The notes beneath the pieces were generated by a model. That model did no database searches and was not told the DNA's origin. It saw only the letters and a list, made by a program, of their open reading frames with translations. A DNA stretch of 64,000 nucleotides from a virus. Both the position numbers and the translations under genes were made by a program. Position 1 is the stretch's first letter; every line of letters starts with the position of its first letter. The DNA lies in the IMG/VR virus record IMGVR_UViG_3300042402_001861, positions 62,001 to 126,000 of that record. The stretch is one strand, 5' to 3'. This document shows positions 34,070-58,985 of this stretch, piece after piece.

Positions 34070-34768
34070 ATGAAGAGCCTGTTGGAACATCTTTTGCAGG
34101 AGGATGACTGCGCCAAGATTTTTGGAAATGTGCTTTTTGGAAATCCTCCCGGCGAAGAGCGAGACAGCACCAAGGAAAGAGACATTAGAAAGGCAGTCAT
34201 GTCCTTCTTCGGTGATAACTTGACCTACAAGCAGAAGCCCGAAACGGTGGTCAGAGCATTCCGTGAATTATTGAAATGCAAGGGCAAGTTCCCCGACGAA
34301 CTTCAACCCAATGTCAGCCTGCTGTATCGGGGCATCCGCCTGAAAGAAAGTGAAATTGTGAAAATCAAGGATTGGAAGTTTGCCGACGATACAAAGCAGG
34401 AATTGGTCGGCACCGGGACATACAAGTCCAAGTATCCGATTCAGTCATGGTCGGCAAGCAAGATCCGTGCAGAGTTCTTCTCAATCGACTTCCCCGAATG
34501 GCGAAGACAGAAGATGCTGCCTGCAATCGTCATGGCGGTTCCTGACAAGTCCGAAATGCTCTTCAACACCAAGTTCGTCATGGAACTGAAGAAGAGCGCA
34601 AGAGGAACGCAGAAGTACTACATGGAGCAGGAGATCGTCCGTGTCAGCGAGAAGAAGATCAACTGCAAGTTCTTCCTACCCACCCAATATGTCAGGATGG
34701 TCGATGGCCTGTCACGAAAGACAATCGATCACCTCGTCAGCACGGCAGGTTTCCGCCCGACAGCCTAA
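34070..34768 (+). CDS. Putative mono-ADP-ribosyltransferase, virion cargo candidate
   Basis: 232 residues. R-S-E class motifs are in order: Arg87 in LLYRGIR, Ser-Trp-Ser at 126-130 in IQSWSASKIRAEFF, and Glu186-x-Glu188 in YYMEQEIVRVS, which is the biglutamic ExE of arginine-targeting enzymes such as T4 Alt and ModA. The N-terminus MKSLLEHLLQE|DD resembles a T4 capsid targeting sequence. It is the only plus-strand gene in a long minus-strand region and has a leaderless late promoter. T4 Alt is injected and modifies host RNA polymerase; a similar role is inferred. It is related in sequence pattern to 49656-50618. Confidence 0.7.
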   Translation: MKSLLEHLLQEDDCAKIFGNVLFGNPPGEERDSTKERDIRKAVMSFFGDNLTYKQKPETVVRAFRELLKCKGKFPDELQPNVSLLYRGIRLKESEIVKIKDWKFADDTKQELVGTGTYKSKYPIQSWSASKIRAEFFSIDFPEWRRQKMLPAIVMAVPDKSEMLFNTKFVMELKKSARGTQKYYMEQEIVRVSEKKINCKFFLPTQYVRMVDGLSRKTIDHLVSTAGFRPTA

Positions 34769-35004
34769 AGAATGTTCTTGGCCTTGAGCCGCTGCACGAT
34801 CTGATCGAACTCTGTATTCTTGCCGTCGATCAGCAACTGAGCCGCATCGGCAAGGGCAAGAAGTTCCCTCAAGGATTCCACGGTCTGGTTCACGAAGGGG
34901 TATGTCACCTCCATGAATATCTTGTTCCTCTCCGATTTCTTCTGCATCGCTGCGGCACTCTCAAGGCGATCAGCAAGTTCTCGGGCGGTGTGGTGGTGTC
35001 TCAT
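34765..35004 (-). CDS. Small helical protein
   Basis: 79 residues, AAGGAGG site. ARELADRLESAAAMQKKSERNKIFMEV...LRELLALADAAQLLIDGK is fully helical. It overlaps the convergent ADP-ribosyltransferase gene by 4 nt. Late promoter upstream. Unknown function. Confidence 0.5.
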   Translation of the reverse strand: MRHHHTARELADRLESAAAMQKKSERNKIFMEVTYPFVNQTVESLRELLALADAAQLLIDGKNTEFDQIVQRLKAKNIL

Positions 35005-35043
35005 GGAACCTCCTTGGGTAAGACATGGCAAAGAGAACAAATG

Positions 35044-35051
35044 TATTTAAC
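35044..35051 (-). promoter_or_regulatory. Late promoter
   Basis: Minus strand TGTTAAATA, 39 nt before the ATG at 35004, just after the tRNA-Thr 3' end. Confidence 0.5.
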
Positions 35052-35056
35052 ACGAA

Positions 35057-35127
35057 GCCATCTGCGGGAATCGAACCCGCGATCTGCTCATTACAAGTGA
35101 GCCGCATTACCACTCTGCTAAGATGGC
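35057..35127 (-). tRNA. tRNA-Thr(TGT)
   Basis: 71 nt, acceptor GCCATCT/AGATGGC, anticodon stem GCTCA/TGAGC with loop CTTGTAA (TGT), T-arm GCGGG-TTCGATT-CCCGC. CCA not encoded. Confidence 0.93.
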
Positions 35128-35132
35128 GTGAA

Positions 35133-35214
35133 TGGGAGCGGAAGGATTCGAACCTTCGTAGCCAATGGCAGCAGATTTACAGTCTGCCCTCGTTGTCCGC
35201 TTGAGTACACTCCC
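35133..35214 (-). tRNA. tRNA-Tyr(GTA)
   Basis: 82 nt with a long variable arm as expected for bacterial tRNA-Tyr. Anticodon stem GCAGA/TCTGC with loop CTGTAAA (GTA), T-arm GAAGG-TTCGAAT-CCTTC, discriminator A. Confidence 0.93.
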
Positions 35215-35219
35215 TGAAT

Positions 35220-35462
35220 TCAGAATGTCCGCAGGGCGATGATGAGACTCATCGTCATGAAGAATGCCGTCAGGATCGTCGTTGTGACGAGGGGATGATC
35301 GAATGCAAAGTACTGCGCTTGCGTCAATGTCTTCACCGTGTCAAACTTCTTTTTCATCTTTGTAACTCCTTTGGTGTCATGGTTCGCCAAGTGGTCAAGG
35401 GCATGGGAGTGCCTTCGATTCACTTCTTCTATTGATCTCAGCAACTTTTCCTTCGGTCGCAT
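35220..35462 (-). CDS. Small membrane protein with possible internal start
   Basis: 80 residues from the ATG at 35462 (AGGA site), or 45 residues from an in-frame ATG at 35357 that has an excellent AAAGGAG site. The C-terminus is a membrane helix (FDHPLVTTTILTAFFMTMSLIIALRTF). Both forms may be made. Function unknown. Confidence 0.5.
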   Translation of the reverse strand: MRPKEKLLRSIEEVNRRHSHALDHLANHDTKGVTKMKKKFDTVKTLTQAQYFAFDHPLVTTTILTAFFMTMSLIIALRTF

Positions 35463-35471
35463 ATGTCGTTC

Positions 35472-35915
35472 CTATTCGCCGTCCGTCTTGCGAAATTGAC
35501 TGTTGTTTGCGTTTGCCTCTTCCAACTCAGCGAGTTTTTCCGATGCCCACTTGCGAACGGCTATCTCCCGATCAGTCGGGGGAACCTTGGTAGTCCCGTA
35601 CACAACCATCTTTTCGTGGACTTTGCGAATCTCATCGGCTACCAACTCGGCAAGGATCGGCTCACGGATTCGATATTGGTCTTCCATGAATTCGTCCGTG
35701 ATACGCATCCATGTATCGGTGGATCGATTCACCATGTCATACTTCACGAAGTACATGAACGGTGCGGTTTCGATCTTGATGAGTCGCCGCTCCAACTCAC
35801 CGATGGTGTGATATGCCTCGGAAAGAGTCTCAATGACTTCAGGAGCAAACAGATCGCTGCGCTTGGTCAACTCGCGAATCTTGTACGCGACCTCTTCGAC
35901 TTCTTTTCTGTTCAT
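35472..35915 (-). CDS. Hypothetical protein
   Basis: 147 residues, helical, charged (EVEEVAYKIRELTKRSDLFAPEVIETLSEAYHTIGELERRLIKIE). C-terminal REIAVRKWASEKLAELEEANANN. ATGA overlap with the methylase gene upstream. No family recognised. Confidence 0.5.
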   Translation of the reverse strand: MNRKEVEEVAYKIRELTKRSDLFAPEVIETLSEAYHTIGELERRLIKIETAPFMYFVKYDMVNRSTDTWMRITDEFMEDQYRIREPILAELVADEIRKVHEKMVVYGTTKVPPTDREIAVRKWASEKLAELEEANANNSQFRKTDGE

Positions 35916-36667
35916 GGCGTATCCTTGTTTTCTTCAGCAAACAAAAGATCAAGTCCGTTCTTTGTAGTGCGCTGTCGTGCAATTCTACACGCTTCGGGAT
36001 TCTTGTCAACCAATACAAATTTTCGATTCATCTGCATCGCCGCCTCTCCCGTTGTTCCTGATCCACAGAAGAAGTCAAGGACAAGATCGCCCTCGTCGGT
36101 GTAGGATTTCAACAATCGCTTGAGCAATTCCAAGGGTTTCTGCGTTGGATAACCGTTTCGTTCCTTGGCGGTCGTTGACAGAATTCCTATCTGCCACCAA
36201 TCATTCATGATGCGTCCATCGGGATGGAATCCATCTCGGTCGCCGTAGTCACGGGGATAGGGTTCACGCTGAACATTGAACTTGCACTTATCCGCATCCT
36301 TGGAGAACACGAACAGGTTGTCATGCTTGCGTGAGAAGTGTCGCTTGGACGCACCTCCCGAAGAGTAGCACCAAATGATCTCGTTTCTGAAGTTGTCCTC
36401 CCCAAACACTTCCTCCAATGCAACACGGACATGATGCGCCCCGTGCCAATCGACATGGACGCAGATGTTGCCGTGATCCTTCAGCACCCGCTTGGATTCG
36501 ATGAACAGGGGCTTGAGCATCGATATGTACTCGCCCACATTCTCCCAATTGTCGTTGAACTGCCCGAAGTCCCGTTGGCAGTAGTAGGGTGGATCGATAT
36601 AGATGAAGTCATACTTCCCATCGGGTTCACCGATGAGAAAGTCGATTGCATCGGATTGGACAATCAT
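35912..36667 (-). CDS. DNA adenine N6-methyltransferase (beta-class)
   Basis: 251 residues from an ATG overlapping the previous stop (TGATG). Catalytic motif IV DPPY in YDFIYIDPPYYC (about residue 22) precedes the SAM-binding motif I VLDFFCGSGTTGEAA (about 205), the beta order of N6-adenine or N4-cytosine methylases (Pfam N6_N4_Mtase). No restriction enzyme partner is next to it, so it likely protects phage DNA. The target site cannot be read from sequence. Confidence 0.92.
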   Translation of the reverse strand: MIVQSDAIDFLIGEPDGKYDFIYIDPPYYCQRDFGQFNDNWENVGEYISMLKPLFIESKRVLKDHGNICVHVDWHGAHHVRVALEEVFGEDNFRNEIIWCYSSGGASKRHFSRKHDNLFVFSKDADKCKFNVQREPYPRDYGDRDGFHPDGRIMNDWWQIGILSTTAKERNGYPTQKPLELLKRLLKSYTDEGDLVLDFFCGSGTTGEAAMQMNRKFVLVDKNPEACRIARQRTTKNGLDLLFAEENKDTP

Positions 36668-36834
36668 CAGTCCATCCACTTCCCATGCTTGAACAGGTGC
36701 CACAGTCTATGGGACAGGATCGACCAACCAAGGCCAATCCAAGTCTTTGACTGATACACGCCTGCGGGACAGAGCATCGTGTATCTGCAAAGTTCCATGT
36801 CACTCATGTCTTTGATGCTTTTCTTCTTGCTCAC
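36667..36834 (-). CDS. Small hypothetical protein
   Basis: 55 residues from a GTG with AGGAGGA 7 nt upstream. DMSDMELCRYTMLCPAGVYQSKTWIGLGW has three cysteines and several aromatics. Overlaps neighbours at both ends by 1-4 nt. No family recognised. Confidence 0.45.
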   Translation of the reverse strand: MSKKKSIKDMSDMELCRYTMLCPAGVYQSKTWIGLGWSILSHRLWHLFKHGKWMD

Positions 36835-37187
36835 TTGCCGTCCTCCTGTTTGAAGCAGTCCCAGCCACGCCGATTCGCAACTTGATTTGCCGTGCATGGC
36901 GGTGATGGTGAAGGACGATATGCTTCATCCCTGCATACCTCCCGCCGTGCCTCATCACGCTCATTGCGAAGTTTTTCAATCTCAATGCGGCAGTCGGTCA
37001 CGGTAGACCGCAGCAACTCAATCTCGCCCAATGCCTCGTTCCGTTCCTTCATCAGACGCAGAGCATCATCTTCCCATCGCTCTGCCTGTTCGGTCAGGTA
37101 TGCGATCTTCTTGTGGAGTTGTTCGGTTTGTGCCATCAACTCTTGATTTCTCATGAGAATGTCCTCGTACTCCATGCCCGTGTTCAT
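36831..37187 (-). CDS. Coiled-coil protein with C-terminal GWDCF module
   Basis: 118 residues. A long coiled coil (QELMAQTEQLHKKIAYLTEQAERWEDDALRLMK...) and a C-terminus ERDEARREVC...RRGWDCFKQ. The last module is shared with 37429-37953 (ERDEARRTLC...ELGWDCFGTKEE). Function unknown. Operon member with 4-nt overlaps. Confidence 0.55.
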   Translation of the reverse strand: MNTGMEYEDILMRNQELMAQTEQLHKKIAYLTEQAERWEDDALRLMKERNEALGEIELLRSTVTDCRIEIEKLRNERDEARREVCRDEAYRPSPSPPCTANQVANRRGWDCFKQEDGK

Positions 37188-37432
37188 GGTGCTTCCTCTC
37201 TTGACAAATCATCCCCGCCCGTACTCATTCTTTCGTTTATTTGTTTCATTGCTGCATTTACAAGAGTATCTTCAGTATAGCCCGAAGATCGAAGACAAAC
37301 CATAAACCGTCTAATTGCATTTGAGAAAGTTGGATCGTTTTCCTCCGCAATTGTCAATGCTGTCAGCATATCCAACGCATACATTGGACTCATGCTGAAC
37401 TGAATTCGTGGAATTTCCTCGTTGTCGTTCAC
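37184..37432 (-). CDS. Small hypothetical protein
   Basis: 82 residues from a GTG with AAAGGAGG 7 nt upstream. IPRIQFSMSPMYALDMLTALTIAEENDPTFSNAIRRFMVCL is helical. Overlaps the next and previous genes by 4 nt. Unknown. Confidence 0.5.
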   Translation of the reverse strand: MNDNEEIPRIQFSMSPMYALDMLTALTIAEENDPTFSNAIRRFMVCLRSSGYTEDTLVNAAMKQINERMSTGGDDLSREEAP

Positions 37433-37953
37433 TTGGTTTCCTCCTTTGTGCCAAAGCAATCCCAACCAAGTTCCGCTGCATAGTCTTCCTTGGTCATCTT
37501 ACTTGCCGGTGGTTGATGCTGTGCATACATCTCGCAAAGTGTTCTCCTCGCCTCGTCCCTCTCTCTTTGCAACTCATCGGCATTTGGAACTGGAACGATG
37601 CTTGAGCCGTATCCATCGGGCAGGAATACCATCCTGTTTTTGTACATCTCTGCATCGGTGTAGATTGAATTGTGGATGTCAAGGTATCCACAGTCCATGC
37701 CGATTGAGTATGCATCGGGACCAAACCCGAACACGGTGTAAAGCACATAGCGATACGAACCGCGATCCTCCATGTCTCCCTTGTGAATTCGCTTGCAGAC
37801 GCTGTAGAAAGCCTTCAGGCGATCATCGTAGGAGAGGCCGTTCCAGAATGCATCGGCGGATGCGGAGAATGCCTGCTTGGACTCTTCAAGCCGGTCGGCC
37901 AAGGTCTTGCCCTCGCTGTCGGGACGGTTGATGATGTCGATGATGTCTTTCAT
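37429..37953 (-). CDS. Hypothetical protein with C-terminal GWDCF module
   Basis: 174 residues. N-terminal helical region, a central aromatic part (GSYRYVLYTVFGFGPDAYSIGMDCGYLDIHNSIY), then ERDEARRTLCEMYAQHQ and AAELGWDCFGT as in 36831-37187. ATGA overlap with the upstream gene. Unknown function. Confidence 0.5.
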   Translation of the reverse strand: MKDIIDIINRPDSEGKTLADRLEESKQAFSASADAFWNGLSYDDRLKAFYSVCKRIHKGDMEDRGSYRYVLYTVFGFGPDAYSIGMDCGYLDIHNSIYTDAEMYKNRMVFLPDGYGSSIVPVPNADELQRERDEARRTLCEMYAQHQPPASKMTKEDYAAELGWDCFGTKEETK

Positions 37954-38234
37954 GGTTCCCATCGTGTATTGTCCTGCATGTCGAAGATTCGGTCACGCAG
38001 GGATTCGATCTCTGCCTGCATGGAAAGAAAAGACTCCTTGAGGAAGTTGAAGTTCTTGCGCTCTGATGCCGAATATGCCTCCCTGTCGGCAAGAAGGCGG
38101 TCGATCACTTCGACGGGATTGACCTTCTTCTTCGGTTCCGGCTTGGGCTTGGGAGCATCCCATTCGATGTGGATGCCACGCTTGAGGCCGTTTGCGGTGC
38201 GAGAATTCCGTGGACGGTTGGGTGCGGTTGCCAT
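37950..38234 (-). CDS. Hypothetical protein, leaderless early gene
   Basis: 94 residues. Basic, Pro/Lys-rich N-terminus (DAPKPKPEPKKKVNPVEVIDRLL) and a helical C-terminus. First gene of the early operon 37950 to 35472. The -10 TATGAT ends 6 nt before the ATG. Confidence 0.55.
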   Translation of the reverse strand: MATAPNRPRNSRTANGLKRGIHIEWDAPKPKPEPKKKVNPVEVIDRLLADREAYSASERKNFNFLKESFLSMQAEIESLRDRIFDMQDNTRWEP

Positions 38235-38240
38235 GGTGAA

Positions 38241-38269
38241 ATCATATCACCCATGGCCGAATCAGTCAA
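38241..38269 (-). promoter_or_regulatory. Early promoter, leaderless
   Basis: Minus strand TTGACT, 17 nt, TATGAT, 6 nt before the ATG at 38234. Confidence 0.75.
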
Positions 38270-38276
38270 GCAAAAC

Positions 38277-38426
38277 TTACCCGCACTCCAATTCGTAAAT
38301 TGCACGAATCTCCTGCTGCCGAATTGTCCTCTGATTTTCAAATTCCTGCCACTTCAGGAGTTTGGCGACGATCTGTTCGTCGGTTGCCAAAGTCAAAGAT
38401 TGAATCTCGGGCTGTTGCTCTTGCAT
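38277..38426 (-). CDS. Very small hypothetical protein
   Basis: 49 residues, a single charged helix (EQIVAKLLKWQEFENQRTIRQQEI). An early promoter's TACAAT ends 9 nt before the ATG, and no ribosome binding site is present. Not a clear family. Confidence 0.45.
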   Translation of the reverse strand: MQEQQPEIQSLTLATDEQIVAKLLKWQEFENQRTIRQQEIRAIYELECG

Positions 38427-38429
38427 ATG

Positions 38430-38822
38430 TCAGGTATTGTACTGCAAAAGCCAGACAAGGCAAGCGATGTCGATGGTAGAAAGTTGGCTTCCCGTCCAGT
38501 TGGCTTCCATCTTTGAAACCGAAGACCCCTTGTATATCGCTCTTCGCGAGATGTTGTAGAGCGCCGTGCTTGTGCCTGCTCCCTTGTAGACGAGATTGCC
38601 CTTGATGGTGTAGAGGCAGTTGCTTGTGCCCGAGCCCGAGAAGACCTGGTTTCCGCGAAGGTTCATCAATGCCTTGGATGTGGACGATCCAAGGAAGACG
38701 ATGTTGCCACGAATCTTCAGCAATGCGTTTCCCGTGGATGACTGGTCATAGAAGATGTCACCGTACTTCTTGACGAAGGCGGTGCTTGTGCCGAGTCCCT
38801 TGTATACCTGTGTCAGTCCCAT
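38430..38822 (-). CDS. Repeat protein (six ~18-residue beta repeats)
   Basis: 130 residues. Six tandem units of the form (I/V)(F/Y)xG(S/A)(G/S)TSxALxxI(R/K)GN between residues about 5 and 115, ending in a short hydrophobic helix. Such units appear in beta-solenoid or four-fold beta-flower proteins of bacteria and phages. It may be structural or surface-exposed. It follows the cargo-candidate genes in the same direction. Confidence 0.6.
   Translation of the reverse strand: MGLTQVYKGLGTSTAFVKKYGDIFYDQSSTGNALLKIRGNIVFLGSSTSKALMNLRGNQVFSGSGTSNCLYTIKGNLVYKGAGTSTALYNISRRAIYKGSSVSKMEANWTGSQLSTIDIACLVWLLQYNT
38436..38463 (-). promoter_or_regulatory. Early promoter, very short leader
   Basis: Minus strand TTGCCT, 16 nt, TACAAT, 9 nt before the ATG at 38426. 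It lies within the end of the repeat-protein gene. Confidence 0.5.
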
Positions 38823-38829
38823 TTCGTCC

Positions 38830-40215
38830 TCATTCCTCGTTGACGGGCTTTCGCGGATCAAATGGCTTCTTGCCCATCATCAGGCCGCTGTATATGTTGT
38901 TGTAGACATTCTGCATCTTGGTGCCATCGGTTCGCTTCATGTTGGCGATTGCCTTGTTGAATTCCTGAACGGTAGGAACCTTGCCCTGCGCCATTCGGGA
39001 ATTGTACTCGCTGATGATGTTTCTGACATCCTGCAAGAGCGAAACGGTTCGCGACAGGAACTTCTCCCTGCGCTTGGGTTCCTCAAGGAAGAACTTTGCC
39101 GTGCTGTATGCCTGCCACGAAACGAATATGAGGCAGAAGTTGCCCACCGCACCCATGTTGTACTTGTCGAGCCCGAACTTGGTCGCATGTTCCCTTGCCC
39201 AAGGCTCCGCGATTGCATCGGACATCTTCCGATACAGTTCCGCGACCACCACCTCGGCAACCTCCTTGCACCTTGCGGTGGGAGTCATGGTGTTGAAGTT
39301 TGAATTTGCGGCCAATGCCTTTGCGGCAGAGCGTTCATTGGTGGCAGCGATCAGGAACGACTGCACGGCATTCTCAACGATCTCAGCCGCACTCTGAAAG
39401 TATGCATTCCACTCCGCATCGCTTGTGTAGTAGTCCTTCTTGAAGACATCCTTGCTGTCATATGACGCATCGATTCCACGCTTGATGTTGCCGGGATGGC
39501 TTGACTTGGACTTGTACCGAAAGTCATCGAACAGGTGGATGAATTCGTGGATGTAGATGTCAGCCGTGTTGGACAATTCGGCCTCGAATTGGTCAAGCCA
39601 CTTGTTCAGGGGCCGTGCAAGTGCCTGAGCCGACTTTCCCTCAATCTTGCCACGAAGAGTCTGTATGATGGCATGGTGGAAGGGCTTGTCGGGCTTGAAC
39701 TGCAATGTCTCCATGTGGTGAATCTGAACCTCGGGATTGTTTCGTCCCATCTTTCCCGAATGGTAGGTTCCCTTGGCATTGCCGCTGCTGAACATGGACC
39801 GACCCGTGGTGCTTCGAAGCGTTGTCTGCAACAGGACGATGTTTCCCTTGTCAACCAACTGACGATACTGCTTCATCGTGATGTAGGAAGGCAGCACCAT
39901 CTGCGACTCGTCCCTGATGCACATGGCGATCACCACATCCCATCCGTTCTTTGTGGCAAGGACAAAGTGCGAGGAAGGCTGGTTCAGCGTGAAGGCATGG
40001 ATCAGGTTGTTGGCAATGGTATGGTCGCTGTCCATGGTGTAGTGGAAGACTCTGTTCTCTGCCATGTCCTTGACGAAGGCGGCGACCTGCCTGCGGAGTA
40101 TGACCATCAGGTTCTTCTTGAATCTTTCAAATGACTTCCTTGCCGCATCCCGTGTCGGGCGGTCAAGTTCACGCTCAAGCAGCAGGGCTTCCATCATCTC
40201 TTCGAAAGTCTTCAT
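38830..40215 (-). CDS. HExxH metalloprotease-like protein, virion cargo candidate
   Basis: 461 residues. HEFIHLFDD (His223-Glu224-x-x-His227) is a zincin motif; a downstream Glu (AAEIVENAVQ) could be the third ligand. The N-terminus MKTFEEMME|A resembles a capsid targeting sequence with the gp21 site, and the gene is co-transcribed from a late promoter with 40212-40454. The long helical C-terminus has no clear family. A zinc protease injected with DNA is the inference. Confidence 0.6.
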   Translation of the reverse strand: MKTFEEMMEALLLERELDRPTRDAARKSFERFKKNLMVILRRQVAAFVKDMAENRVFHYTMDSDHTIANNLIHAFTLNQPSSHFVLATKNGWDVVIAMCIRDESQMVLPSYITMKQYRQLVDKGNIVLLQTTLRSTTGRSMFSSGNAKGTYHSGKMGRNNPEVQIHHMETLQFKPDKPFHHAIIQTLRGKIEGKSAQALARPLNKWLDQFEAELSNTADIYIHEFIHLFDDFRYKSKSSHPGNIKRGIDASYDSKDVFKKDYYTSDAEWNAYFQSAAEIVENAVQSFLIAATNERSAAKALAANSNFNTMTPTARCKEVAEVVVAELYRKMSDAIAEPWAREHATKFGLDKYNMGAVGNFCLIFVSWQAYSTAKFFLEEPKRREKFLSRTVSLLQDVRNIISEYNSRMAQGKVPTVQEFNKAIANMKRTDGTKMQNVYNNIYSGLMMGKKPFDPRKPVNEE

Positions 40216-40454
40216 CGCTTGCCCTTTTGCCCTATTCCGTACTTTCTGAAAATCTCGTCCCGCTTGGCCTGAAGTTCTCTCTGCCGTGGAGAACCCGCCA
40301 TGGCACGAAAGATCAACTTGGTCAGTCGATTGGCTTCCCGACGATCCTCGGGGGACATGACAGCCCAAGGATCCTTGAAACCCTTGAATGAATGGGAAGA
40401 GGAAGCCGACGAAGCCGACGAAGCCTCAAGGATGTGCTGCCGAAAACTCTGCAT
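40212..40454 (-). CDS. Small internal-protein-like gene with capsid targeting signature
   Basis: 80 residues. The N-terminus MQSFRQHILE|ASSASSASSSHSF closely resembles T4 internal proteins (MKTYQEFIAE|A), with cleavage expected after Glu10. The remainder is basic and helical (RREANRLTKLIFRAMAG, RQRELQAKRDEIFRKYG). The late promoter's TAAATA ends 8 nt before the ATG, and the stop overlaps the next ATG (ATGA). Confidence 0.65.
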   Translation of the reverse strand: MQSFRQHILEASSASSASSSHSFKGFKDPWAVMSPEDRREANRLTKLIFRAMAGSPRQRELQAKRDEIFRKYGIGQKGKR

Positions 40455-40462
40455 GGCGAGGG

Positions 40463-49608: not shown

Positions 49609-49659
49609 ATGTTGCGTCTGCATTCTCTGCATCCCCATCTTCCCTGCACAGCCCCATGA
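49609..49659 (+). CDS. Leaderless 16-codon upstream ORF
   Basis: MLRLHSLHPHLPCTAP; ATG 9 nt after the late -10; its TGA overlaps the ADP-ribosyltransferase ATG (CCATGA). Same design as the mini-ORF before PAP2. Confidence 0.35.
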   Translation: MLRLHSLHPHLPCTAP

Positions 49660-50618
49660 GAAGTTTCTACGATTTCTCAAAGTCTGTCCCTGTCACTCCT
49701 GTCACTCCTGTCAATTTGAAACTTGACGAGGCGAGCAGGGTGAAGTCTTCAGAGGACTTGCAGAAATTGGCAAAGAAGATTCGTCCCATCACCGTATGCG
49801 ACATCTTCTCTGATTCCACTCCCAAGCGTCTGTATGAATTGATGGACGAGAATCTTTGGCATCAGACACTTGTTTCAAATGGCATCATCTCAAGCAGGGG
49901 GTATTCCTACGATTATGATGCTCCTGCATGGATGGAAAGGCTCAAGCGTGACATCTGGTCACCCTTTGTTGAATGGTTCGAAGCCGAGGGTGGTTCCAAG
50001 CAGGGGATGATTCCCAAGATCGCGGCGATGGCCTCATGCAGGAAGAGGGCAGCATGGGCGAACTGGTCGGGAACCGCCTATCGCGGACTCAGCCGAAGCC
50101 TTGCACGGATCGCCAAGTACGAGTACACCAGCAAGACCGAGGCTGTCGGTGGCAGGACATGGCTTGTGGCAAGTGTCTCCTATCAGAGCAAGTATGCCAT
50201 TCAGTCATGGACGAGTGAACCTAAGGTTGCCAAGAACTTTGCCGATGGCGGCATGGATGTTGCCGTGATGTTGCAGATGGACATAAAAAAAGGCGAGGGG
50301 TTCCTGTCGCCCGAGGTGAGCAACAGATTGGGCAAGCACTACAAGGAGAGCGAGGTGCTGCGAATCGGCAACGCCAAGACGAGGGTGAAGGCTCTGGTTG
50401 ACATGAGAGACTTGCTGAACGAACTTGACGAGATCCTTGGTGTCATGCGTCTTCCCGCATCATGGGATACGATGCCCACGAAGATGCGTAAGCAGGCATG
50501 GCCCGAGGCCGTGGCGGCGAAGATGATTCGACTTGGATTCTCAAAGTCCTCTGTCGCAAGCCTCATGTCTTCGGGGCATCCATTTTACGCATCGGTGATG
50601 AAGAGGGTGCCATGGTAA
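49656..50618 (+). CDS. Putative mono-ADP-ribosyltransferase, virion cargo candidate
   Basis: 320 residues. R-S-E motifs: Arg143 in TAYRGLSRSL, Ser184-Trp-Thr-Ser in YAIQSWTSEPKVAKNFA, Glu231-Ser-Glu233 in YKESEVLRIG (ExE). The N-terminal MRSFYDFSKS and LKLDE25|A look like targeting and cleavage signals for gp21. It shares the YxSKYxIQSW segment with 34070-34768, so both belong to one family. Targets may be host RNA polymerase or translation proteins as for T4 Alt; inference. It starts the internal-protein cluster. Confidence 0.7.
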   Translation: MRSFYDFSKSVPVTPVTPVNLKLDEASRVKSSEDLQKLAKKIRPITVCDIFSDSTPKRLYELMDENLWHQTLVSNGIISSRGYSYDYDAPAWMERLKRDIWSPFVEWFEAEGGSKQGMIPKIAAMASCRKRAAWANWSGTAYRGLSRSLARIAKYEYTSKTEAVGGRTWLVASVSYQSKYAIQSWTSEPKVAKNFADGGMDVAVMLQMDIKKGEGFLSPEVSNRLGKHYKESEVLRIGNAKTRVKALVDMRDLLNELDEILGVMRLPASWDTMPTKMRKQAWPEAVAAKMIRLGFSKSSVASLMSSGHPFYASVMKRVPW

Positions 50619-50917
50619 ACTTCAAGTCATACATCAGCGAGGCAAAGGTCAGGATGTCGTGGAAGCGATATGTCATGAAGACTGTTGATGGAAAGATTGC
50701 AGATTGGATAGAGGCTGCTTACGAAAGCAGCAACAAACGATTTGTCATCAAGAAGCACAGACGAAGTTCGACATATGAACTGTTTGACAGACGGCATCCG
50801 AGGACATCTTTTGGATCATATGAAACCCTTGATGCGGCAAAGGAGAGTGCAGAGTGGGCATTGCTGAACGATCCACGGACAGAGTGGCATCCTTCTCTGC
50901 GTGAGGGCACGGCATGA
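50612..50917 (+). CDS. Internal-protein-like, capsid targeting signature
   Basis: 101 residues. MVNFKSYISE|AKVRMSW is a T4 internal-protein-type start. The rest is basic and aromatic (RFVIKKHRRSSTYELFDRRHPRTSFGSYETLDAAKESAEWAL), resembling a small domain. Overlaps both neighbours by 4-7 nt. Unknown activity. Confidence 0.6.
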   Translation: MVNFKSYISEAKVRMSWKRYVMKTVDGKIADWIEAAYESSNKRFVIKKHRRSSTYELFDRRHPRTSFGSYETLDAAKESAEWALLNDPRTEWHPSLREGTA

Positions 50918-51654
50918 AGTCTTTCCGTGGCCACATCACCGAGGTGTTCGACACGACACACTCATGGGAGCCTGTGTCCACGGGAGGCAACCATTGGGTC
51001 TATCGCTTTGCCTTGGCAAAGGTTCGCCGTGGTTTGTTCCTTCCTGCTCCCCTGCGTGGCGAGGAGATCGTCAAGTTCTACGAAAAGCAGGGAATGAGAA
51101 TCACGGGCAAGGATGGGCAGAACCGTCCCTTGGTAAACGGCAAGGACATTGCAAGCACTCCTCTTGCGGGTGCGATGTACGAGGTTGGCTTTCGTTCATT
51201 GGGACACAACATGGAGAAGTATTCCGAGTTGTTCAAGCGTTCCAACCTTGGCGGCAACGACAAGTATCTCCTGTGGGAAATAGACTTTGCACGAAACGAT
51301 TCGATGCTCAAGTGGTCAAACGGAAACTGGCAATGGGACTATGAATCGAATTCAGGGGGTTCTGACGAGGATCTTGGAATCATGGGAGGCGGCGATGCTG
51401 CTGCCATACTGTCCACGGTGGTCGCCATCGCCAAGGAATTCGTCGCCAAGGTCAAGCCCATGGGAATTCTCCTTGGCACGAAGATGGACGCAAAGGGAGC
51501 AAGGAGCCGAATCTATGCTGGCCTTGCAAGCAGAAACAATGCACGGATGATTCCCATTCCCTACTCGCCAAGGTCAGGCATGGGCAATGCGAACATGCTG
51601 TGGTTTGGCAAGGACAAGGACTTCCAGCCCGTCAGCAAGGAAGGCAAGCCATGA
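50914..51654 (+). CDS. Internal-protein-like, capsid targeting signature
   Basis: 246 residues. MKSFRGHITE|VFDT at the N-terminus. The body contains GGNHWVYRFALAKVRRGLFLP, DKYLLWEIDFARND and a Gly-rich GIMGGGDAAAILSTVVAIAKEF segment, ending in basic residues. No known family. ATGA overlap with the previous gene. Confidence 0.6.
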   Translation: MKSFRGHITEVFDTTHSWEPVSTGGNHWVYRFALAKVRRGLFLPAPLRGEEIVKFYEKQGMRITGKDGQNRPLVNGKDIASTPLAGAMYEVGFRSLGHNMEKYSELFKRSNLGGNDKYLLWEIDFARNDSMLKWSNGNWQWDYESNSGGSDEDLGIMGGGDAAAILSTVVAIAKEFVAKVKPMGILLGTKMDAKGARSRIYAGLASRNNARMIPIPYSPRSGMGNANMLWFGKDKDFQPVSKEGKP

Positions 51655-52298
51655 AGTCATTCATCGCATTCATCAGCGAGGCACAGTCCTTCGCACAATG
51701 GGTTGCACGGAATGCCGAGAAGCGCAAGGCACCCGCATCGGGTTCTCCCCGCAGTTCCTTCCCGTGGATGCAGAATGCCAACATGGTTCCCGGTTGGTGG
51801 CATCCGACCAAGCAATGGTTCACTTTCGCCCACGGCAAGCAGGGCTACCATGTCACGCATCTTGTGAACAACCTCTCAAAGTTCGGCATTTCCGAAAAGG
51901 AGTTGATGGCTGCTGCGGCGAAGGAAGCGCAGAGGCCATATTGGGACAACGAATTGAGAAAGCAACGGGGACACAATCTTGTCGATGCCGAGCGGGTGAT
52001 CCACATGATCAAGAACGAGAACATCGACAACTCCTATCCGATCATGGCACTAGCCTACAAGCGTGGATGGCTCAAGGCATACGGCGGGAAGTTCCACACC
52101 GGCGACCGTGGCGGCGCAATCGAAGGTTCCGACAAGAAGAGCATCAAGGCCGCGATCCGCGAGATAGAGCAGGCGGCATCCATGGCAGGAATCGATGACA
52201 TCCGTATCGATGCAACGGAGCGGTCAAACACCACATACGAGCCAAAGTTCTTCGTTCTGGATTCAAAGTTCAAGCGTGATGGATACATGAGGCAATGA
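51651..52298 (+). CDS. Internal-protein-like, capsid targeting signature
   Basis: 215 residues. MKSFIAFISE|AQSFAQWVARNAEKRK is the closest match in the window to T4 IPIII (MKTYQEFIAE|A). The remainder is basic and helical with IDDIRIDATERSNTTYEPKFFVLDSKFK at the end. No known family. ATGA overlap with its upstream neighbour. Confidence 0.65.
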   Translation: MKSFIAFISEAQSFAQWVARNAEKRKAPASGSPRSSFPWMQNANMVPGWWHPTKQWFTFAHGKQGYHVTHLVNNLSKFGISEKELMAAAAKEAQRPYWDNELRKQRGHNLVDAERVIHMIKNENIDNSYPIMALAYKRGWLKAYGGKFHTGDRGGAIEGSDKKSIKAAIREIEQAASMAGIDDIRIDATERSNTTYEPKFFVLDSKFKRDGYMRQ

Positions 52299-53271: not shown

Positions 53272-53286
53272 AATAGGCATTCGTGG

Positions 53287-53340: not shown

Positions 53341-53356
53341 ATCAAGGACAAACACC

Positions 53357-54004: not shown

Positions 54005-55282
54005 TTACTTGACGCAGCCCCAGAAAAGGTCTGCGCCAGCCTTGCTTGTTATGTCTATGCCCTTTTTGGCGGTAGTCTTTGACTTCGAACCCTCAACACG
54101 GGGAGCGATGGCAAAGGTCACTCTTGCCTTCTTGCTCTCTATTGTGCAAGACACATCAAATACGGACATTGATCTAGCCTGACGGTTTATGTCGGTTGCC
54201 TTTGTCGGAGTTGAGTGTACTTGTGTTATCTTTCCGATTTCTAGGTTTCCTGATGTTGCAGGGAACGGTTTCATGCTATAGATGTACTGTTGACCGTTCA
54301 CCTTGATCGTCTTGCTTGATGTGTTGAAGTCCACGGCTCCTGTCTTGGCAAGATTCGACAGGACTTTCTCTTCCATGTAGACGGGCTTCCCTACCTTTAT
54401 ATCGTTTATGGATGCCGCTTGGATTCTTATCCTTCTTTTCAGGGCAACCGTGGTTTCGCTCAATGATCCTCGCTTGAGGCGAACCTCCATCTCTCTCGCA
54501 GAATCATCCATCTTGTCAAGTGAGGAAATCGATGGGACTGTTCCGCCAACAAACCACGAAGGAAGTTTGGCACCAGAGTAAAGAAGCCCGATGTTTTCAA
54601 TATAGACAAAGTGGTCACCGCCATTCTTTGCAAGACCTTGCAAAGTTGCCCAGTAACTGTCTAGGGTGATTCTCCACTTTTCGCCGCTTTCCTGTGTCGT
54701 GTACTTCTTCAGTATTGGATTCCATATTTCCTTTGTGACCCAGAAGTGTATGTTTCCCGAGATAGTGGATTGATCGTTCATCCACTTTCCGATAGTCGGC
54801 AACATGACATCAAGTCTGGCTTCCACGGTTGTCAACTTCTTGAGTACCGACTTTCGGTTTATCTCACTCATGGAGTTCCACTTGCCAAGGGACACCTCTG
54901 TGGGGCTCCACTTCTTGTTGTTTCGATTGAGAGTGATGCTGACTCCCTGTGCTTCTTCTTTCTTCACTTCGATCACGATAGGATCGCTGAGTCTCTTTCC
55001 GTTCTTGTCTAGTTTGTAGATTGTAATGTCAGGCTGTACAGAACCAATTCCCTTGTCTCCTCCACCTTGAGAGAAATTGCTTACGACCTCTATCTTTCCC
55101 TGAAGATGCGAAGGCATTTCCTTGAGAAGTGCCTTGGCTATTTTGTTCTGCAACACACCGCCAGCCTGCCCACGAATCGACTTCTGCGGAGCCTTGGCTT
55201 CGAGGAACATACGGGCAGCAGGGGACAGCAGAGGAGAACTCTCGTCCAGATGGATGAACTGTTTTAGGGTTAGTGGCTTCAT
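54005..55282 (-). CDS. PD-(D/E)XK nuclease-like protein, virion cargo candidate
   Basis: 425 residues. The N-terminus MKPLTLKQFIHLDE|SSPLLSP, then FLE|AKAP, looks like two gp21 sites after a targeting sequence. Asp85 in QPDITIYKL and Glu105-x-Lys107 in IVIEVKKEEAQG form a D-(x)19-ExK active site of the restriction-endonuclease-like fold. The rest has no clear family. TAAATA ends 6 nt before the ATG (leaderless late). A DNA-cutting cargo injected with the genome is the inference; the target is unknown. Confidence 0.6.
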   Translation of the reverse strand: MKPLTLKQFIHLDESSPLLSPAARMFLEAKAPQKSIRGQAGGVLQNKIAKALLKEMPSHLQGKIEVVSNFSQGGGDKGIGSVQPDITIYKLDKNGKRLSDPIVIEVKKEEAQGVSITLNRNNKKWSPTEVSLGKWNSMSEINRKSVLKKLTTVEARLDVMLPTIGKWMNDQSTISGNIHFWVTKEIWNPILKKYTTQESGEKWRITLDSYWATLQGLAKNGGDHFVYIENIGLLYSGAKLPSWFVGGTVPSISSLDKMDDSAREMEVRLKRGSLSETTVALKRRIRIQAASINDIKVGKPVYMEEKVLSNLAKTGAVDFNTSSKTIKVNGQQYIYSMKPFPATSGNLEIGKITQVHSTPTKATDINRQARSMSVFDVSCTIESKKARVTFAIAPRVEGSKSKTTAKKGIDITSKAGADLFWGCVK

Positions 55283-55288
55283 GCTCGG

Positions 55289-55302
55289 TATTTATCTAAA
55301 TA
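55289..55302. promoter_or_regulatory. Bidirectional late promoter
   Basis: Minus-strand TAAATA (55289-55294) and plus-strand TAAATA (55297-55302), 2 bp apart, serve the nuclease-like gene and the gene at 55321. Confidence 0.75.
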
Positions 55303-55320
55303 AAAACCGAGGATACCCCC

Positions 55321-55578
55321 ATGAAGAGTTTCAAGAAACTTAAGGAAGAGTTGGCAGGCCGTGTTCAGGTTCACTACGGATCGAAGGACGGCTTTGGTAA
55401 GGATGTCAAGATCATCGCCACGGTTCCCCCGATGACTGAACCTGCCATCGAAAACAAGTACGACCTCATGCGAAAAATTGAAAAGTACATCAAAGACATG
55501 AAGACAAAGGGGTTGATCAAGGGGAATGGCTACAAAATCGTATACCCACATGACCCACAATGGCGTGGGAGTAAGTGA
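55321..55578 (+). CDS. Small basic protein with possible targeting start
   Basis: 85 residues. MKSFKKLKEELAGRVQVHYGSKDGFGKDVKIIATVPP; the start has the M-K-S-F signature and a KEE site. ACCGAGG in the leader. Late promoter shared with the divergent nuclease-like gene. Unknown. Confidence 0.5.
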   Translation: MKSFKKLKEELAGRVQVHYGSKDGFGKDVKIIATVPPMTEPAIENKYDLMRKIEKYIKDMKTKGLIKGNGYKIVYPHDPQWRGSK

Positions 55579-55584
55579 GCAAAC

Positions 55585-55752
55585 ATGGGAAGAGAGCGTA
55601 AGGGAAAGATGGACAAGGGGGGCAAGAAGCCCGGACTTTCGTTGCAGGGACTGCCGAAGATTTATCCACCCAATGGTCAACCCATAAGCAAGGAACTTCG
55701 TGCTTGGGCAGAGCGGAAGATTGCCGCCAACAAGGCAGCAGGCAAGCGTTAA
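55585..55752 (+). CDS. Small basic hypothetical protein
   Basis: 55 residues, Lys/Arg/Gly-rich (GRERKGKMDKGGKKPGLS) with AWAERKIAANKAAGKR at the end. Overlaps the convergent gene by 4 nt. Not in a known family. Confidence 0.45.
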   Translation: MGRERKGKMDKGGKKPGLSLQGLPKIYPPNGQPISKELRAWAERKIAANKAAGKR

Positions 55753-56048
55753 CGGTAGCGGACGATCAGGGTCTTCTGCCAGATCGACCAAGTGACCTTC
55801 TCGTCATCGCCAACGATGTCCGAGAGAAGTTGCTCCACTTTTTGCCGAGCAGACTTGCGTAGTTCTGAATCGTCCTGCCGTTGCGAGTCACCAATTGGAA
55901 TCTGTCCGTTGAGTCCCTGTATCAGGTTGAAGTCGGGTGCATTCCTGAATTCAGGTATCTCCATCATTAGCCAACTAATGTCATAGGTCTTGATGACATC
56001 GGGACACATGAGCATCAGGCTCGTAAGCAGGACGGGAAGAATCTGCAT
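55749..56048 (-). CDS. Hypothetical protein with N-terminal hydrophobic segment
   Basis: 99 residues from an ATG overlapping the previous stop (TGATG). N-terminal ILPVLLTSLMLMCPDV; no lipobox is clear. C-terminal helical, basic. Unknown. Confidence 0.45.
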   Translation of the reverse strand: MQILPVLLTSLMLMCPDVIKTYDISWLMMEIPEFRNAPDFNLIQGLNGQIPIGDSQRQDDSELRKSARQKVEQLLSDIVGDDEKVTWSIWQKTLIVRYR

Positions 56049-56323
56049 CAGTATTGCTCCGAATAGGGCTTGGCCCATGACAGGGCGATGATGTCCTCTA
56101 TGCCTAGAGGATTTGCGATCCTACGCAGCACACCCTTTTCCGTGGATGTTGGCTCTCCCGGCGTACCATTACGCATGGCACGGACGCACTTTTCAAGTGT
56201 TGCCTCGTCCAAGGATTTCAAAATTTCAAGGTATTCCTCGGGAATCGAAGCGGATTCGGGGACAGCCTCGTAGGCAATTTCAATCGGAGGCATTGAGATG
56301 TTTCCGTATCGGAATCTTGGCAT
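56048..56323 (-). CDS. Hypothetical protein
   Basis: 91 residues, GAGGAG site. MPRFRYGNISMPPIEIAYEAVPESASIPEEYLEILKSLDEATLEKCVRAM; helical. First gene of a two-gene minus-strand unit. Unknown. Confidence 0.45.
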   Translation of the reverse strand: MPRFRYGNISMPPIEIAYEAVPESASIPEEYLEILKSLDEATLEKCVRAMRNGTPGEPTSTEKGVLRRIANPLGIEDIIALSWAKPYSEQY

Positions 56324-56389
56324 GGAAGTCTCCTCTGTATCTATGGGGGCAGGCGAATTTGAGGAATAGATACAGTAGAGGAATTCCCC

Positions 56390-56860
56390 ATGGCATATGC
56401 ACACAAGTTGGCAGAACTAGCCAACCAAATCACTAATCTCACCGAGGCTCCGATGCTTGCTCCAAGCACGGACACCGGCATGTTCGGCTACAGCAAGTCG
56501 CAGTTTGAGATGAAGATTCGCCAACTGCTTCAGAGAATGGGATTTGAGAAGGGCATCAACAAGATGGAGATCGGCTCCAACGGTAAGATGATGCTCCACT
56601 TCGCCAATGCAGCGAAGGCACGGGACTTCATGATCACATTCAACGGCATGGTTCGTCGCATGGCCAAGGGCGGTGCCACGGCTGCACAGATGGTGACTTC
56701 CTTCGACAAGAACAAGTCTCCCGGCACGGCTGCCGTTGTATCCGTTGACTTCTCCGTGATGATGAAGAAGGAAGGTGTCGAGGTCACCGAGGACATCTTC
56801 GTGATGCTCGAAAGCCTGCACGATTCGTTCATCAAGGAACAAACTTCTACGGAAGAATAA
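56390..56860 (+). CDS. Hypothetical protein with N-terminal LTE|A site
   Basis: 156 residues. NQITNLTE|APML near residue 19 could be a gp21 cleavage site after a short leader. The body FEMKIRQLLQRMGFEKGINKMEIGSNGKMMLHFANAAKARDFMITF is alpha/beta. Stop overlaps the next ATG (TAATG). Possible internal protein. Confidence 0.5.
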   Translation: MAYAHKLAELANQITNLTEAPMLAPSTDTGMFGYSKSQFEMKIRQLLQRMGFEKGINKMEIGSNGKMMLHFANAAKARDFMITFNGMVRRMAKGGATAAQMVTSFDKNKSPGTAAVVSVDFSVMMKKEGVEVTEDIFVMLESLHDSFIKEQTSTEE

Positions 56861-57174
56861 TGCACTATCGTGACTTGAAGAAAAAGTTGGAAGAGGAGAT
56901 TGCCAACACCACGGCGATCATCAATTATCCCGCAGGGTTCCAAGTAGACACGGTTCCATCTGACTTCGATGTCGAAGACTTTCCCGAGGATGATGAGTGG
57001 AGCAGAGACAGAAAAGACCTTGGCGACAAGTGGGAAGTTGCAAATGCAGCGGCAGCACGGGAACGCCGTGAGACTGTACTTCGCTGGCTTAAAGCCGCCT
57101 CTGGCAATCAGTTAAATGCGGTTGACAACAAGAGCCTCCCCAAGGTTCCCGGTTGGCAATCCGAGAAGTATTAA
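56860..57174 (+). CDS. Hypothetical protein
   Basis: 104 residues, charged (MHYRDLKKKLEEEIANTTAI, SDFDVEDFPEDDEWSRDRKDLGDKWEVA). No family recognised. Operon with 56390. Confidence 0.45.
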   Translation: MHYRDLKKKLEEEIANTTAIINYPAGFQVDTVPSDFDVEDFPEDDEWSRDRKDLGDKWEVANAAAARERRETVLRWLKAASGNQLNAVDNKSLPKVPGWQSEKY

Positions 57175-57176
57175 AC

Positions 57177-57206
57177 TTGACACGAATTGTGGGGTGAATG
57201 TAGACT
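57177..57206 (+). promoter_or_regulatory. Early promoter for outer-membrane protein gene
   Basis: TTGACA, 18 nt, TAGACT, 59 nt before the ATG at 57266. It overlaps the previous stop region. Confidence 0.55.
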
Positions 57207-57265
57207 CCCTCCCTATACATACCTATCCCTATCCATTGTGGGTCGGGAGTTACAAAGGAGAAATG

Positions 57266-58033
57266 ATGAAGAAAGTAATTACCTACGCTGCGGCTATGGT
57301 TGCCGCTCTTTCCTTCGGCCACATGGCTGCTGCTCAGGAGGCTGCTGCTCCTGCCGCTGCTCCGGTGTTCGAAGTCAAGAATTGGTACTTCCGCGAGAGC
57401 ATCGATGTGAATGCCCTCAAGGATAACGGCGGCACCTTCGTTGGACTGAACCAGACCCTAGGATTCGACATCATGAAGGATGTGACTGTCGATTTCAATG
57501 TTCCCGTGTATGCACAGAATGGCTACACCTCGGTGGCCAACCTCATGCTCGGTGCAAATTGGGCTGCGTTCAAGGGCAACAACAGCGTCCTTGGTGACTG
57601 GATGCTGAACTTCGGTGGCGGTTTCTACATTCCCGTTGGTACGGAATACTTCCGCAATGCGAATGTGAACCCGTTCGTGAACACCAAGTTCGGCTTCGAT
57701 CTGTGGAAGTTCGACTTCGCACAGACCGTTGACTACCGCTTCAACGGTGGAGAGTCCTACATCACTTGGCTCGGAGCCAAGACCGATTCGGATGTCCTCA
57801 CCCTTGTGTCGGATCTGTCCTATGCTTGGAACGCTTGGAACTTCGGCCTACAGTTTGACCAGTTGTACTATGTCAACAGCGGCGAGTACCAGTTGTTCCT
57901 TGGTCCGGTTGCTTCGTGGGAGGTTGCTTCGAATGTTTCGTTCGACGCTGCCATCCTCATCCCTGTTGCACAACAGGTCACTAGCGCCGAGTCCAATGCC
58001 TTCGTGAAGGCTGGCATCGAAGTCAAGTTCTGA
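57266..58033 (+). CDS. Outer-membrane beta-barrel-like protein
   Basis: 255 residues after an N-terminal signal peptide (KKVITYAAAMVAALSFGHMAAAQ|E, cleavage near residue 23). The mature part alternates aromatic and polar residues in beta strands (KNWYFRESIDV, TVDFNVPVYAQ, WDLSKFDFA-like LWKFDFAQTVDYRF) and ends in GIEVKF with a terminal Phe, typical of outer-membrane barrels. A phage-encoded OM protein could block superinfection or change permeability. A second ATG one codon upstream exists. Strong AAAGGAG site and terminator. Confidence 0.7.
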   Translation: MKKVITYAAAMVAALSFGHMAAAQEAAAPAAAPVFEVKNWYFRESIDVNALKDNGGTFVGLNQTLGFDIMKDVTVDFNVPVYAQNGYTSVANLMLGANWAAFKGNNSVLGDWMLNFGGGFYIPVGTEYFRNANVNPFVNTKFGFDLWKFDFAQTVDYRFNGGESYITWLGAKTDSDVLTLVSDLSYAWNAWNFGLQFDQLYYVNSGEYQLFLGPVASWEVASNVSFDAAILIPVAQQVTSAESNAFVKAGIEVKF

Positions 58034-58057
58034 TTTCAAATTTCTGCTACTTCAACG

Positions 58058-58088
58058 GCAGGGAGTCGAAAGACTCCCTGCTGTTTTC
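58058..58088 (+). terminator. Rho-independent terminator
   Basis: GCAGGGAGTC-GAAA-GACTCCCTGC followed by TGTTTTCC, 25 nt after the OM protein stop. Confidence 0.9.
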
Positions 58089-58095
58089 CTAAATA
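58088..58095 (+). promoter_or_regulatory. Late promoter, leaderless
   Basis: CCTAAATA ending 5 nt before the ATG at 58101, in the tail of the terminator. Confidence 0.65.
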
Positions 58096-58100
58096 TCCAT

Positions 58101-58985
58101 ATGCGTAGATTCCGAAGTTTCGTTTCCGAAGGTTACAACGGCGATGGCGATTGCATGGAAGCCGCCGCCAACCTAATGATGCGTTTTCACACTCCTTTCT
58201 TCGGAAAGCAGTTGCAGTCCAAGTCGGGAAATCCCATTCTCGTCCATGCCCTCGTCTACGGACAGGGGCCGGTGAAGAATCTTCGGTTCCCCCATGCATG
58301 GGTTGAGGATGGAGATACCGTCATCGACCAATCCAACGGTCGCGATATCCAAATGGACAAGCGAGTTTACTACGCAGTAGGCAAGATTGATCCCAAGCAG
58401 AAGGGTGCCTACAAGACATATACCTTCAAGGAAATGAAGAAGAAGTTGACATCTACAGGTCACTACGGACATTGGGACTTGGATGAGAAACTTGAGGAAG
58501 TCACTTCGCGAATTGGCAAGATGCGAAAGCCGGTTGGACGCAAGGTGATGGACATCCTGAAGGAAGCAATCGTCAGCGGAGTGGGCGGTGGCGTAAGAAA
58601 GCCGATGCCCCCTTCATCCCCCGTCAAGAAGATTGAGTGGAACGAGTTGAAGCGGCTTGAGTCGATGCTTGACAATCTGTTCGCCGCTGCAAAGTTGGAC
58701 ATCAAGTTCACCAAGCACTTCCTTGAGAGAGTCAACGGTTCCCGTGGGTACGGCGGCACCGTGACGATGGGTGAGATTCAGGATGCCTTCAACAAGACAT
58801 TCAAGAAGTATGCAAGCGTCATTCAGAACAAGCCCGTCGATTGGAAGGCAGTCATCAACGATGTCTCCAAGAATCTCAACATGCCGTTTGCGTTGGATTG
58901 GGACGCAAGCAAGAAAAGCATGGTGATCCTGACGGCGATGAAGAAACCCAACTTTGCCTCGCCCGACCCAAAGTTGAAGGTCTGA
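58101..58985 (+). CDS. Two-domain cargo candidate with Cys-His-Asp domain
   Basis: 294 residues. MRRFRSFVSE|GYNG targeting signature. Domain 1: Cys18 in GDCMEAAANLM, His65 in FPHAWVEDGD, Asp76 in VIDQS, the layout of papain/transglutaminase-like cysteine enzymes. A linker with MDILKE|AIVSG (LKE|A, the same site as in the capsid protein) separates it from domain 2 (FTKHFLERVNGS...KMPFALDWDASKKSMVILTAMKKPNF), a module common in T4-like phage proteins. The site would let gp21 split the two domains. Confidence 0.6.
   Translation: MRRFRSFVSEGYNGDGDCMEAAANLMMRFHTPFFGKQLQSKSGNPILVHALVYGQGPVKNLRFPHAWVEDGDTVIDQSNGRDIQMDKRVYYAVGKIDPKQKGAYKTYTFKEMKKKLTSTGHYGHWDLDEKLEEVTSRIGKMRKPVGRKVMDILKEAIVSGVGGGVRKPMPPSSPVKKIEWNELKRLESMLDNLFAAAKLDIKFTKHFLERVNGSRGYGGTVTMGEIQDAFNKTFKKYASVIQNKPVDWKAVINDVSKNLNMPFALDWDASKKSMVILTAMKKPNFASPDPKLKV

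Follow-up and report, generated by a model that had tools for sequence, protein, structure and literature searches.

The Alt protein of bacteriophage T4 is an ADP-ribosyltransferase (ART) that is packaged in the phage head and injected. T4 also has the internal proteins IPI, IPII and IPIII, which begin with a capsid-targeting sequence (CTS), an N-terminal tag of about 10 residues (MKTYQEFIAE/A; here and below the slash marks a gp21-type cleavage site). The T4 internal proteins are basic (PMC9026906), and IP1-3 each block one subtype of the GmrSD restriction enzyme (PMC12373910). Mutants of IPIII link residues 4 and 7 to targeting and residues 8 and 10 to processing (PMC9026906). Polyvalent proteins, MuF-fused effectors, and the ejection proteins of SPN3US and P1 (DarA, DdrB) are likewise head-packaged multi-enzyme payloads. 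Lastly, cyanophage virion proteomes list enzymes that their authors, in the accessible parts of the reports, leave undecided between cargo and contaminant (PMC10665884, PMC9602691). Here we describe a set of tagged genes in a 64,000-nucleotide stretch of viral DNA (the window), bases 62001-126000 of the 177,364-base virus record IMGVR_UViG_3300042402_001861. These genes very likely encode T4-type CTS-tagged proteins that are carried in the phage head and would be injected into the next host.

The record belongs to an uncultured marine T4-like (Kyanoviridae-like) phage of bacteria. The nearest relatives of its capsid protein gp23 are those of Pelagibacter phage Mosig (63%), Methylophilales phage Melnitz and cyanophages, and we therefore placed the phage near the family Kyanoviridae. 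A T4-type head module is encoded on the plus strand of the window, consisting of the prohead protease gp21 (S77; 8633..9280; PF03420, 125 bits; phrog_207 head maturation protease, 5e-80), the scaffold gp22 (9327..10454; phrog_237 head scaffolding protein, 8e-81) and the major capsid protein gp23 (10540..11910; phrog_138, 2e-164; aligned to T4 gp23). This bears out two statements of the original prediction, namely that the phage encodes gp21 and that its capsid protein has an LKE/A site, which we found as YLKE/AAP at residue 47, near the cut position of T4 gp23 by alignment. Co-encoded gp21, gp22 and gp23 are a feature of the CTS class. In this phage, gp21 is the predicted cutter of the cargo tags and gp22 would be expected to bring CTS-tagged proteins into the core of the prohead.

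The original prediction listed nine genes whose N-termini resemble the T4 tag, and all nine N-termini are present. Genes are named below by the window position at which they start, with a minus sign for the minus strand. In five of them the spacing is exactly that of T4, M-x-x-[FY]-x-x-[FYH]-[ILV]-x-E: 40454- (MQSFRQHILE/A), 50612 (MVNFKSYISE/A), 50914 (MKSFRGHITE/V), 51651 (MKSFIAFISE/A) and 58101 (MRRFRSFVSE/G). The other four are only variants, with one residue more in 34070 (MKSLLEHLLQE), one residue less in 40215- (MKTFEEMME/A), the targeting-like and cleavage-like parts set apart in 49656 (MRSFYDF, then LKLDE/A), and the start MKPLTLKQFIHLDE/S in 55282-. Two strict members were found beyond the nine, 32596- (MRDFHQHINE/K), which lies in the window outside 34070-58985, and a gene at genome position 153924 (MQRFKNYISE/D), which lies outside the window. 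Together with about 4-8 variants, the genome thus holds 7 strict gene starts. At least 8 unrelated proteins, and probably around 12, have a T4-type tag at their front end.

To assess chance, we called genes piecewise over the 177-kb genome and used the strict form M-x-x-[FY]-x-x-[FYHLMI]-[ILVM]-x-E. Strict starts head 5 of 186 called genes. Adding 40454- and 32596-, each either overlooked by the caller or given too late a start, makes 7, against 0.08 expected from internal positions. None of 1058 internal methionines begins a match. As DNA, the motif occurs at 7 places in the genome, while the reversed pattern occurs 0-2 times per strand in each of 19 records. Counts in related contigs are comparable: contigs of 148, 119 and 49 kb hold 7, 7 and 5, respectively, and contig G007 (88 kb) holds 8. 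Although His at position 7 of the pattern was suggested by the present genome, the consensus used for the wider scan below was not. A chance likeness of short N-termini picked by eye has in its favor that the nine include four loose variants. We give it almost no credence, since both these statistics with their controls and the shared basic charge of the candidates speak against it; it is contradicted for the strict set and could still apply to single variants such as 49656 and 55282-.

With its aromatic residues at positions 4 and 7, hydrophobic residue at position 8 and Glu at position 10, the strict set belongs, on the sequence-level features examined, to the T4-type CTS cargo class. It resembles IPI, IPII and IPIII in tag length, spacing, key residues and the gp21-type Glu/(Ala, Gly or Ser) site, as well as in basic mature proteins and unrelated mature parts behind a single tag, and promoter elements suggest that late expression may be shared too. 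It differs in that the T4 proteins are small GmrSD inhibitors (PMC12373910), whereas the present cargo is larger, enzyme-like, more numerous and from another phage family. The claim of a suite far larger than that of T4 holds, but to a moderate degree for this genome, as the comparison is of 7 strict members and about 4-8 variants with three CTS-like starts in T4 plus its other known internal proteins. When applied to T4, the same pattern matched IPII, IPIII, gp61.1 and one further place that resembles a chance match. T4 gp61.1 (NC_000866, 18966-19130), a hypothetical protein of 54 residues, starts with the CTS-like MKTFKEFIKE and is a candidate overlooked internal protein.

Since the candidates were picked by N-terminus only, their isoelectric point (pI) serves as an independent test. 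The pI of all 11 candidates lies within 9.2-10.9. Among the remaining 166 proteins the median is 6.0, and 15% reach 9 or more (p = 5e-7). The weak variants 25112-, 55321 and those at genome positions 149483 and 150733 are basic as well. Three further candidates (56390, 56860 and genome position 156096) were dropped for lack of a basic pI (4.9-6.8). Not every tagged protein is basic, however: of those in cyanophage S-CREM2, gp6 and gp13 are and gp14 and gp154 are not.

Diverged homologues in five cargo families differ at a rate of 0.13 at position 4, 0.35 at position 7, 0.43 at position 8 and 0.00 at position 10, compared with 0.57-0.78 at positions 2, 3, 5, 6 and 9. Exchanges within families are among H, Y, F and L at position 7 and among I, L and V at position 8. 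The pattern indicates that the targeting and processing positions are under selection, matching the T4 mutant data. The family of 58101 illustrates this, with the starts MRRFRSFVSE, MINFKTYISE, MLNFKTYISE, MKTFNTYLNE and MKSFKSYLTE. In contig L209, the counterpart of 58101 is two genes, and each half has a tag of its own (MKSFKSYLTE and MKSFKSYIIE/A). Fused versions have a gp21-type site where the two domains meet, ILKE/A here and ALDE/A or ALDE/G in relatives (L205-L208). This conserved site suggests that 58101 may be a cargo polyprotein which is cut in two inside the head. DUF6267 proteins are tagged in L011, Melnitz and G007 and untagged in S-SZBM1. Hence, the tag is a module placed before unrelated domains.

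The conservation bears on whether these are ordinary late or takeover proteins of the cytoplasm that share an N-terminus for translation of leaderless mRNA, protein stability or a similar reason. The late promoter element TAAATA stands 5 nt (34070), 8 nt (40454-) and 6 nt (55282-) before the ATG and within 5-8 nt of it at 58101; for 49656 the distance is 56 bases. The first four genes have no Shine-Dalgarno sequence, and the same holds for the L174 and L173 homologues, where TAAATA is also 5-8 nt from the ATG. In most other genes with TAAATA it lies 13-43 nt upstream, and many of these genes have a Shine-Dalgarno sequence of the GGAG type. Since TAAATA is so close to the ATG and no Shine-Dalgarno sequence is present, late mRNAs of 34070, 40454-, 55282- and 58101 would be leaderless or nearly so, and translation initiation could place constraints on the first codons. 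The cytoplasmic explanation is nonetheless highly improbable, as conservation falls on amino acid positions 4, 7, 8 and 10, genes internal to operons also have the motif, and tagged proteins of related phages occur in virions. Regarding the claim that most of the genes have late promoters, it stands per transcription unit, with TAAATA elements preceding five cargo units, but not per gene, as 40215-, 50612, 50914 and 51651 begin within the last bases of the cargo gene upstream.

We scanned viral contigs with the consensus M-K-[ST]-F-x-x-F-I-[AST]-E-A, which was not derived from the present genome, and obtained matches in at least 120 stretches. All 122 of the consensus matches listed head open frames, compared with 20% of random ATGs. 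With the tag removed, the listed matches comprise at least 31 unrelated families, and the domains named among them are cytidylyltransferase, DUF6267, S-adenosylmethionine (SAM) lyase, glucosaminidase, DPBB/RlpA-like, GNAT and AAA_33 kinase. A scrambled control pattern of equal degeneracy gave 5 stretches from one family. These control matches (L130-L134) are small basic-looking proteins starting MKSFKEFEAIAYKG, and they resemble a CTS variant that lacks the usual cleavage site.

Such breadth is difficult to reconcile with the idea that the tagged proteins are parts of the head core or scaffold that contribute to prohead assembly, stay in the head after cleavage and do nothing in the next host cell. 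The start of gp21 is itself CTS-like (MKLFCDLNE/S) and T4 IPIII influences head assembly (PMC9026906), as this idea would have it. However, one tag is found on at least 31 unrelated families that include SAM lyase, glucosaminidase, GNAT and kinase domains, cargo is patchily present among close relatives, and T4 tagged proteins are ejected and active in the host (PMC12373910, PMC9026906). We therefore consider a purely structural role unlikely.

Published virion proteomes of related cyanomyoviruses provide a further line of evidence. In S-CREM2, virion proteins start with MKDFDSFLEE (gp6, SAM lyase), MKDLHSFLTE (gp13), (V)KRFDAFLTE (gp14, kinase) and MKNFSSFLTE/A (gp154, cytidylyltransferase), and the Cas9-like gp12 has LRFASFMAE/A from residue 17. 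All three strict CTS proteins of S-CREM2 were detected in virions (Fisher p = 0.013; 0.003 without structural proteins), as were four of five when Leu was permitted at position 4. The NMNAT of S-SCSM1 (MKSFLQFLKE/A) was detected in virions, and the cytidylyltransferase of S-SZBM1 (MRFRQFIIE/A) was the sole enzyme detected in its virions. Likewise, the S-CRM01 kinase, which begins with MISFDQFLSE/K, is reported to occur in virions (Dreher 2011 as cited in PMC10665884). These four phages resemble the present one in their CTS-like N-termini and in a place in or near Kyanoviridae, and a DUF6267/cytidylyltransferase/DUF5824 block also occurs in the present genome. Their virion-detected NMNAT/cytidylyltransferase, SAM lyase and kinases differ from the cargo families of the window. 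The accessible parts of the virion reports make no mention of a tag. In a search whose scope left out most subscription papers and all preprints, a single review mentions both capsid targeting and cyanophages, and we found no earlier report tying the tag to cyanophage virion enzymes.

A number of observations weigh against a head-packaged suite. Four of the nine listed genes are variants, S77 was recovered from 5 of 14 related contigs, most of them fragments, which shows its co-occurrence with tagged genes for only some, and Foldseek and profile searches left the enzyme fold unconfirmed for the two modelled window cargo proteins. The virion proteomes come from four related phages and none from the present phage. 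In those studies, S-SCSM1 ORF30 has a strict CTS (MKTFKQFMSE) and was undetected in virions, several S-CREM2 virion proteins are without a CTS, cleaved N-termini are not given, and the S-CREM2 authors state that co-purified protein is possible. Taken together, the chance statistics, basic pI, position-specific conservation, split cargo and virion proteomes still make a CTS-tagged, head-packaged suite the best reading, as originally predicted. Packaging and gp21 cleavage of the tagged proteins are probable, and by analogy the cargo may be injected with the DNA.

The R-S-E signature of ARTs consists of an Arg in strand 1, an SxS/T before a helix, and ExE. Two window cargo proteins have motifs of this type, 34070 (34070..34768, plus strand; YRG, QSWS, EQE), with the CTS variant MKSLLEHLLQE, and 49656 (49656..50618, plus strand; YRG, QSWT, ESE). 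YRG, QSW and ExE are invariant across nine homologues; among nine diverged homologues of 34070 the invariant residues are Y86, R87, G88, S126, E186 and E188. With T4 Alt both have in common the R-S-E type motifs and, close to the N-terminus, a gp21-like site. They differ from Alt in bearing an IP-type tag, and sequence and fold searches gave no significant match to a solved ART (for the ART-like model, best Foldseek E 0.12 with TM-score under 0.2; no Pfam or PDB profile match to ART). Gene 49656 heads a four-gene operon, and its homologue in G010 begins with the full CTS MKDFKKYISE/A. The operon continues on the plus strand with three basic proteins without known function, 50612 (50612..50917; pI 9.6), 50914 (50914..51654; homologues start MKSFSSHITE and MKYFESYITE) and 51651 (51651..52298). 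Homologues of 51651 start MKTYSQLILE and MKTLSQLLSE, where the tag is kept and the next ~20 residues are unalignable.

On the minus strand, 32596- (32066..32596; pI 9.2) has an NT5C/HAD-type nucleotidase domain (PF06941, 6e-5, just under the cut-off) that begins at residue 15, past the tag, and its CTS is retained in four related contigs. The small, very basic protein 40454- (40212..40454, minus strand; pI 10.9) has a homologue in G010 that starts MKSFLTHITE/A. Overlapping its end is the ATG of 40215- (38830..40215, minus strand), a metallopeptidase-like protein with an HExxH motif (HEFIHLFD); a single-protein search for relatives gave none, and related records gave homologues in four relatives, with starts MK[TSA]F... 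Gene 55282- (54005..55282, minus strand; pI 9.8) has a PD-(D/E)xK nuclease-like pattern, read by eye, and no homologues in 12 related records. Gene 58101 (58101..58985, plus strand; family A4) encodes its tag, a Cys/His/Asp domain, the ILKE/A site at residue 155 and a second domain. Possible further members with weak CTS variants are 55321 (55321..55578, plus strand; MKSFKKLKEE, homologue MKTYKQLKEE; pI 9.8) and 25112- (24051..25112, minus strand; MKEFQGLKDYLEE; pI 9.4), a zeta-toxin-like kinase (PF06414, 2e-7) whose gene has a late promoter.

Searches of Pfam, PDB sequences and Foldseek, as applied per protein, gave nothing significant for the ART-like pair or for the HExxH, nuclease-like and 58101 proteins, and most window cargo was left unnamed by PDB sequence, Pfam, PHROG and NCBIfam searches. 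Against PDB, Foldseek gave no significant match for the ART-like model or the 58101 model (predicted local distance difference test, pLDDT, 73 and 61, respectively); papain-like matches of the latter were too weak for use. The several enzyme types of the original prediction are therefore present as motifs, while window cargo folds and profiles are unconfirmed, and the proposed identities are motif-level. Outside the window, a block at genome 149483-154190, downstream of a DnaB-like helicase, encodes DUF6267, a 1061-residue cytidylyltransferase/ATP-grasp/Zn-protease-like protein and DUF5824 with CTS-like starts. Similar blocks occur in Melnitz and S-SCSM1, and several members of the S-SCSM1 version are annotated as virion proteins.

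In the mechanism we propose, each cargo would be made late in infection with a CTS of ~10 residues. Residue 4 (aromatic, usually Phe) and residue 7 (Phe, Tyr or His) would dock the tag onto the gp22 prohead core, and upon head maturation gp21 would cut after the Glu at position 10, with Ile, Val or Leu at position 8. The basic mature protein would stay in the head with the DNA until head contents and genome enter the next host. Attached to ART-like, nucleotidase, metallopeptidase-like, nuclease-like, kinase and other domains, the tag may thus assemble a multi-protein first-strike kit against defense and for takeover. Cleavage, injection and the action of each cargo are what we infer, with injection modelled on T4. 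Since T4 IP1-3 block GmrSD and SAM lyases are among the tagged proteins, early counter-defense appears the likeliest common purpose. Polyvalent, MuF, SPN3US and P1 systems use portal or MuF fusions or large multidomain proteins, whereas here a short cleavable tag stands on separate proteins; SPN3US shares the prohead-protease processing predicted here. While the mechanism is known, its size, enzyme content and breadth of use are new within the literature searched.

More broadly, we lean toward the view that marine T4-like phages use the CTS generally as a modular tag for delivery, by which dozens to hundreds of unrelated enzyme families (SAM lyases, ART-like proteins, nucleotidyltransferases, kinases, peptidoglycan enzymes and nucleases) would be packed and injected, with some cargo polyproteins cut by gp21 in the head, for which 58101 is the example, and several genes expressed from near-leaderless late messages. 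A T4 curiosity of three small proteins would then become a searchable signal that predicts, from sequence alone, the proteins that uncultured phages inject in the first moments of infection. The tag would offer a specific explanation for the enzymes that recur in cyanophage virions as undecided cargo or contaminant, a claim checkable in existing mass spectrometry data, and many unstudied families become candidate anti-defense or takeover effectors.

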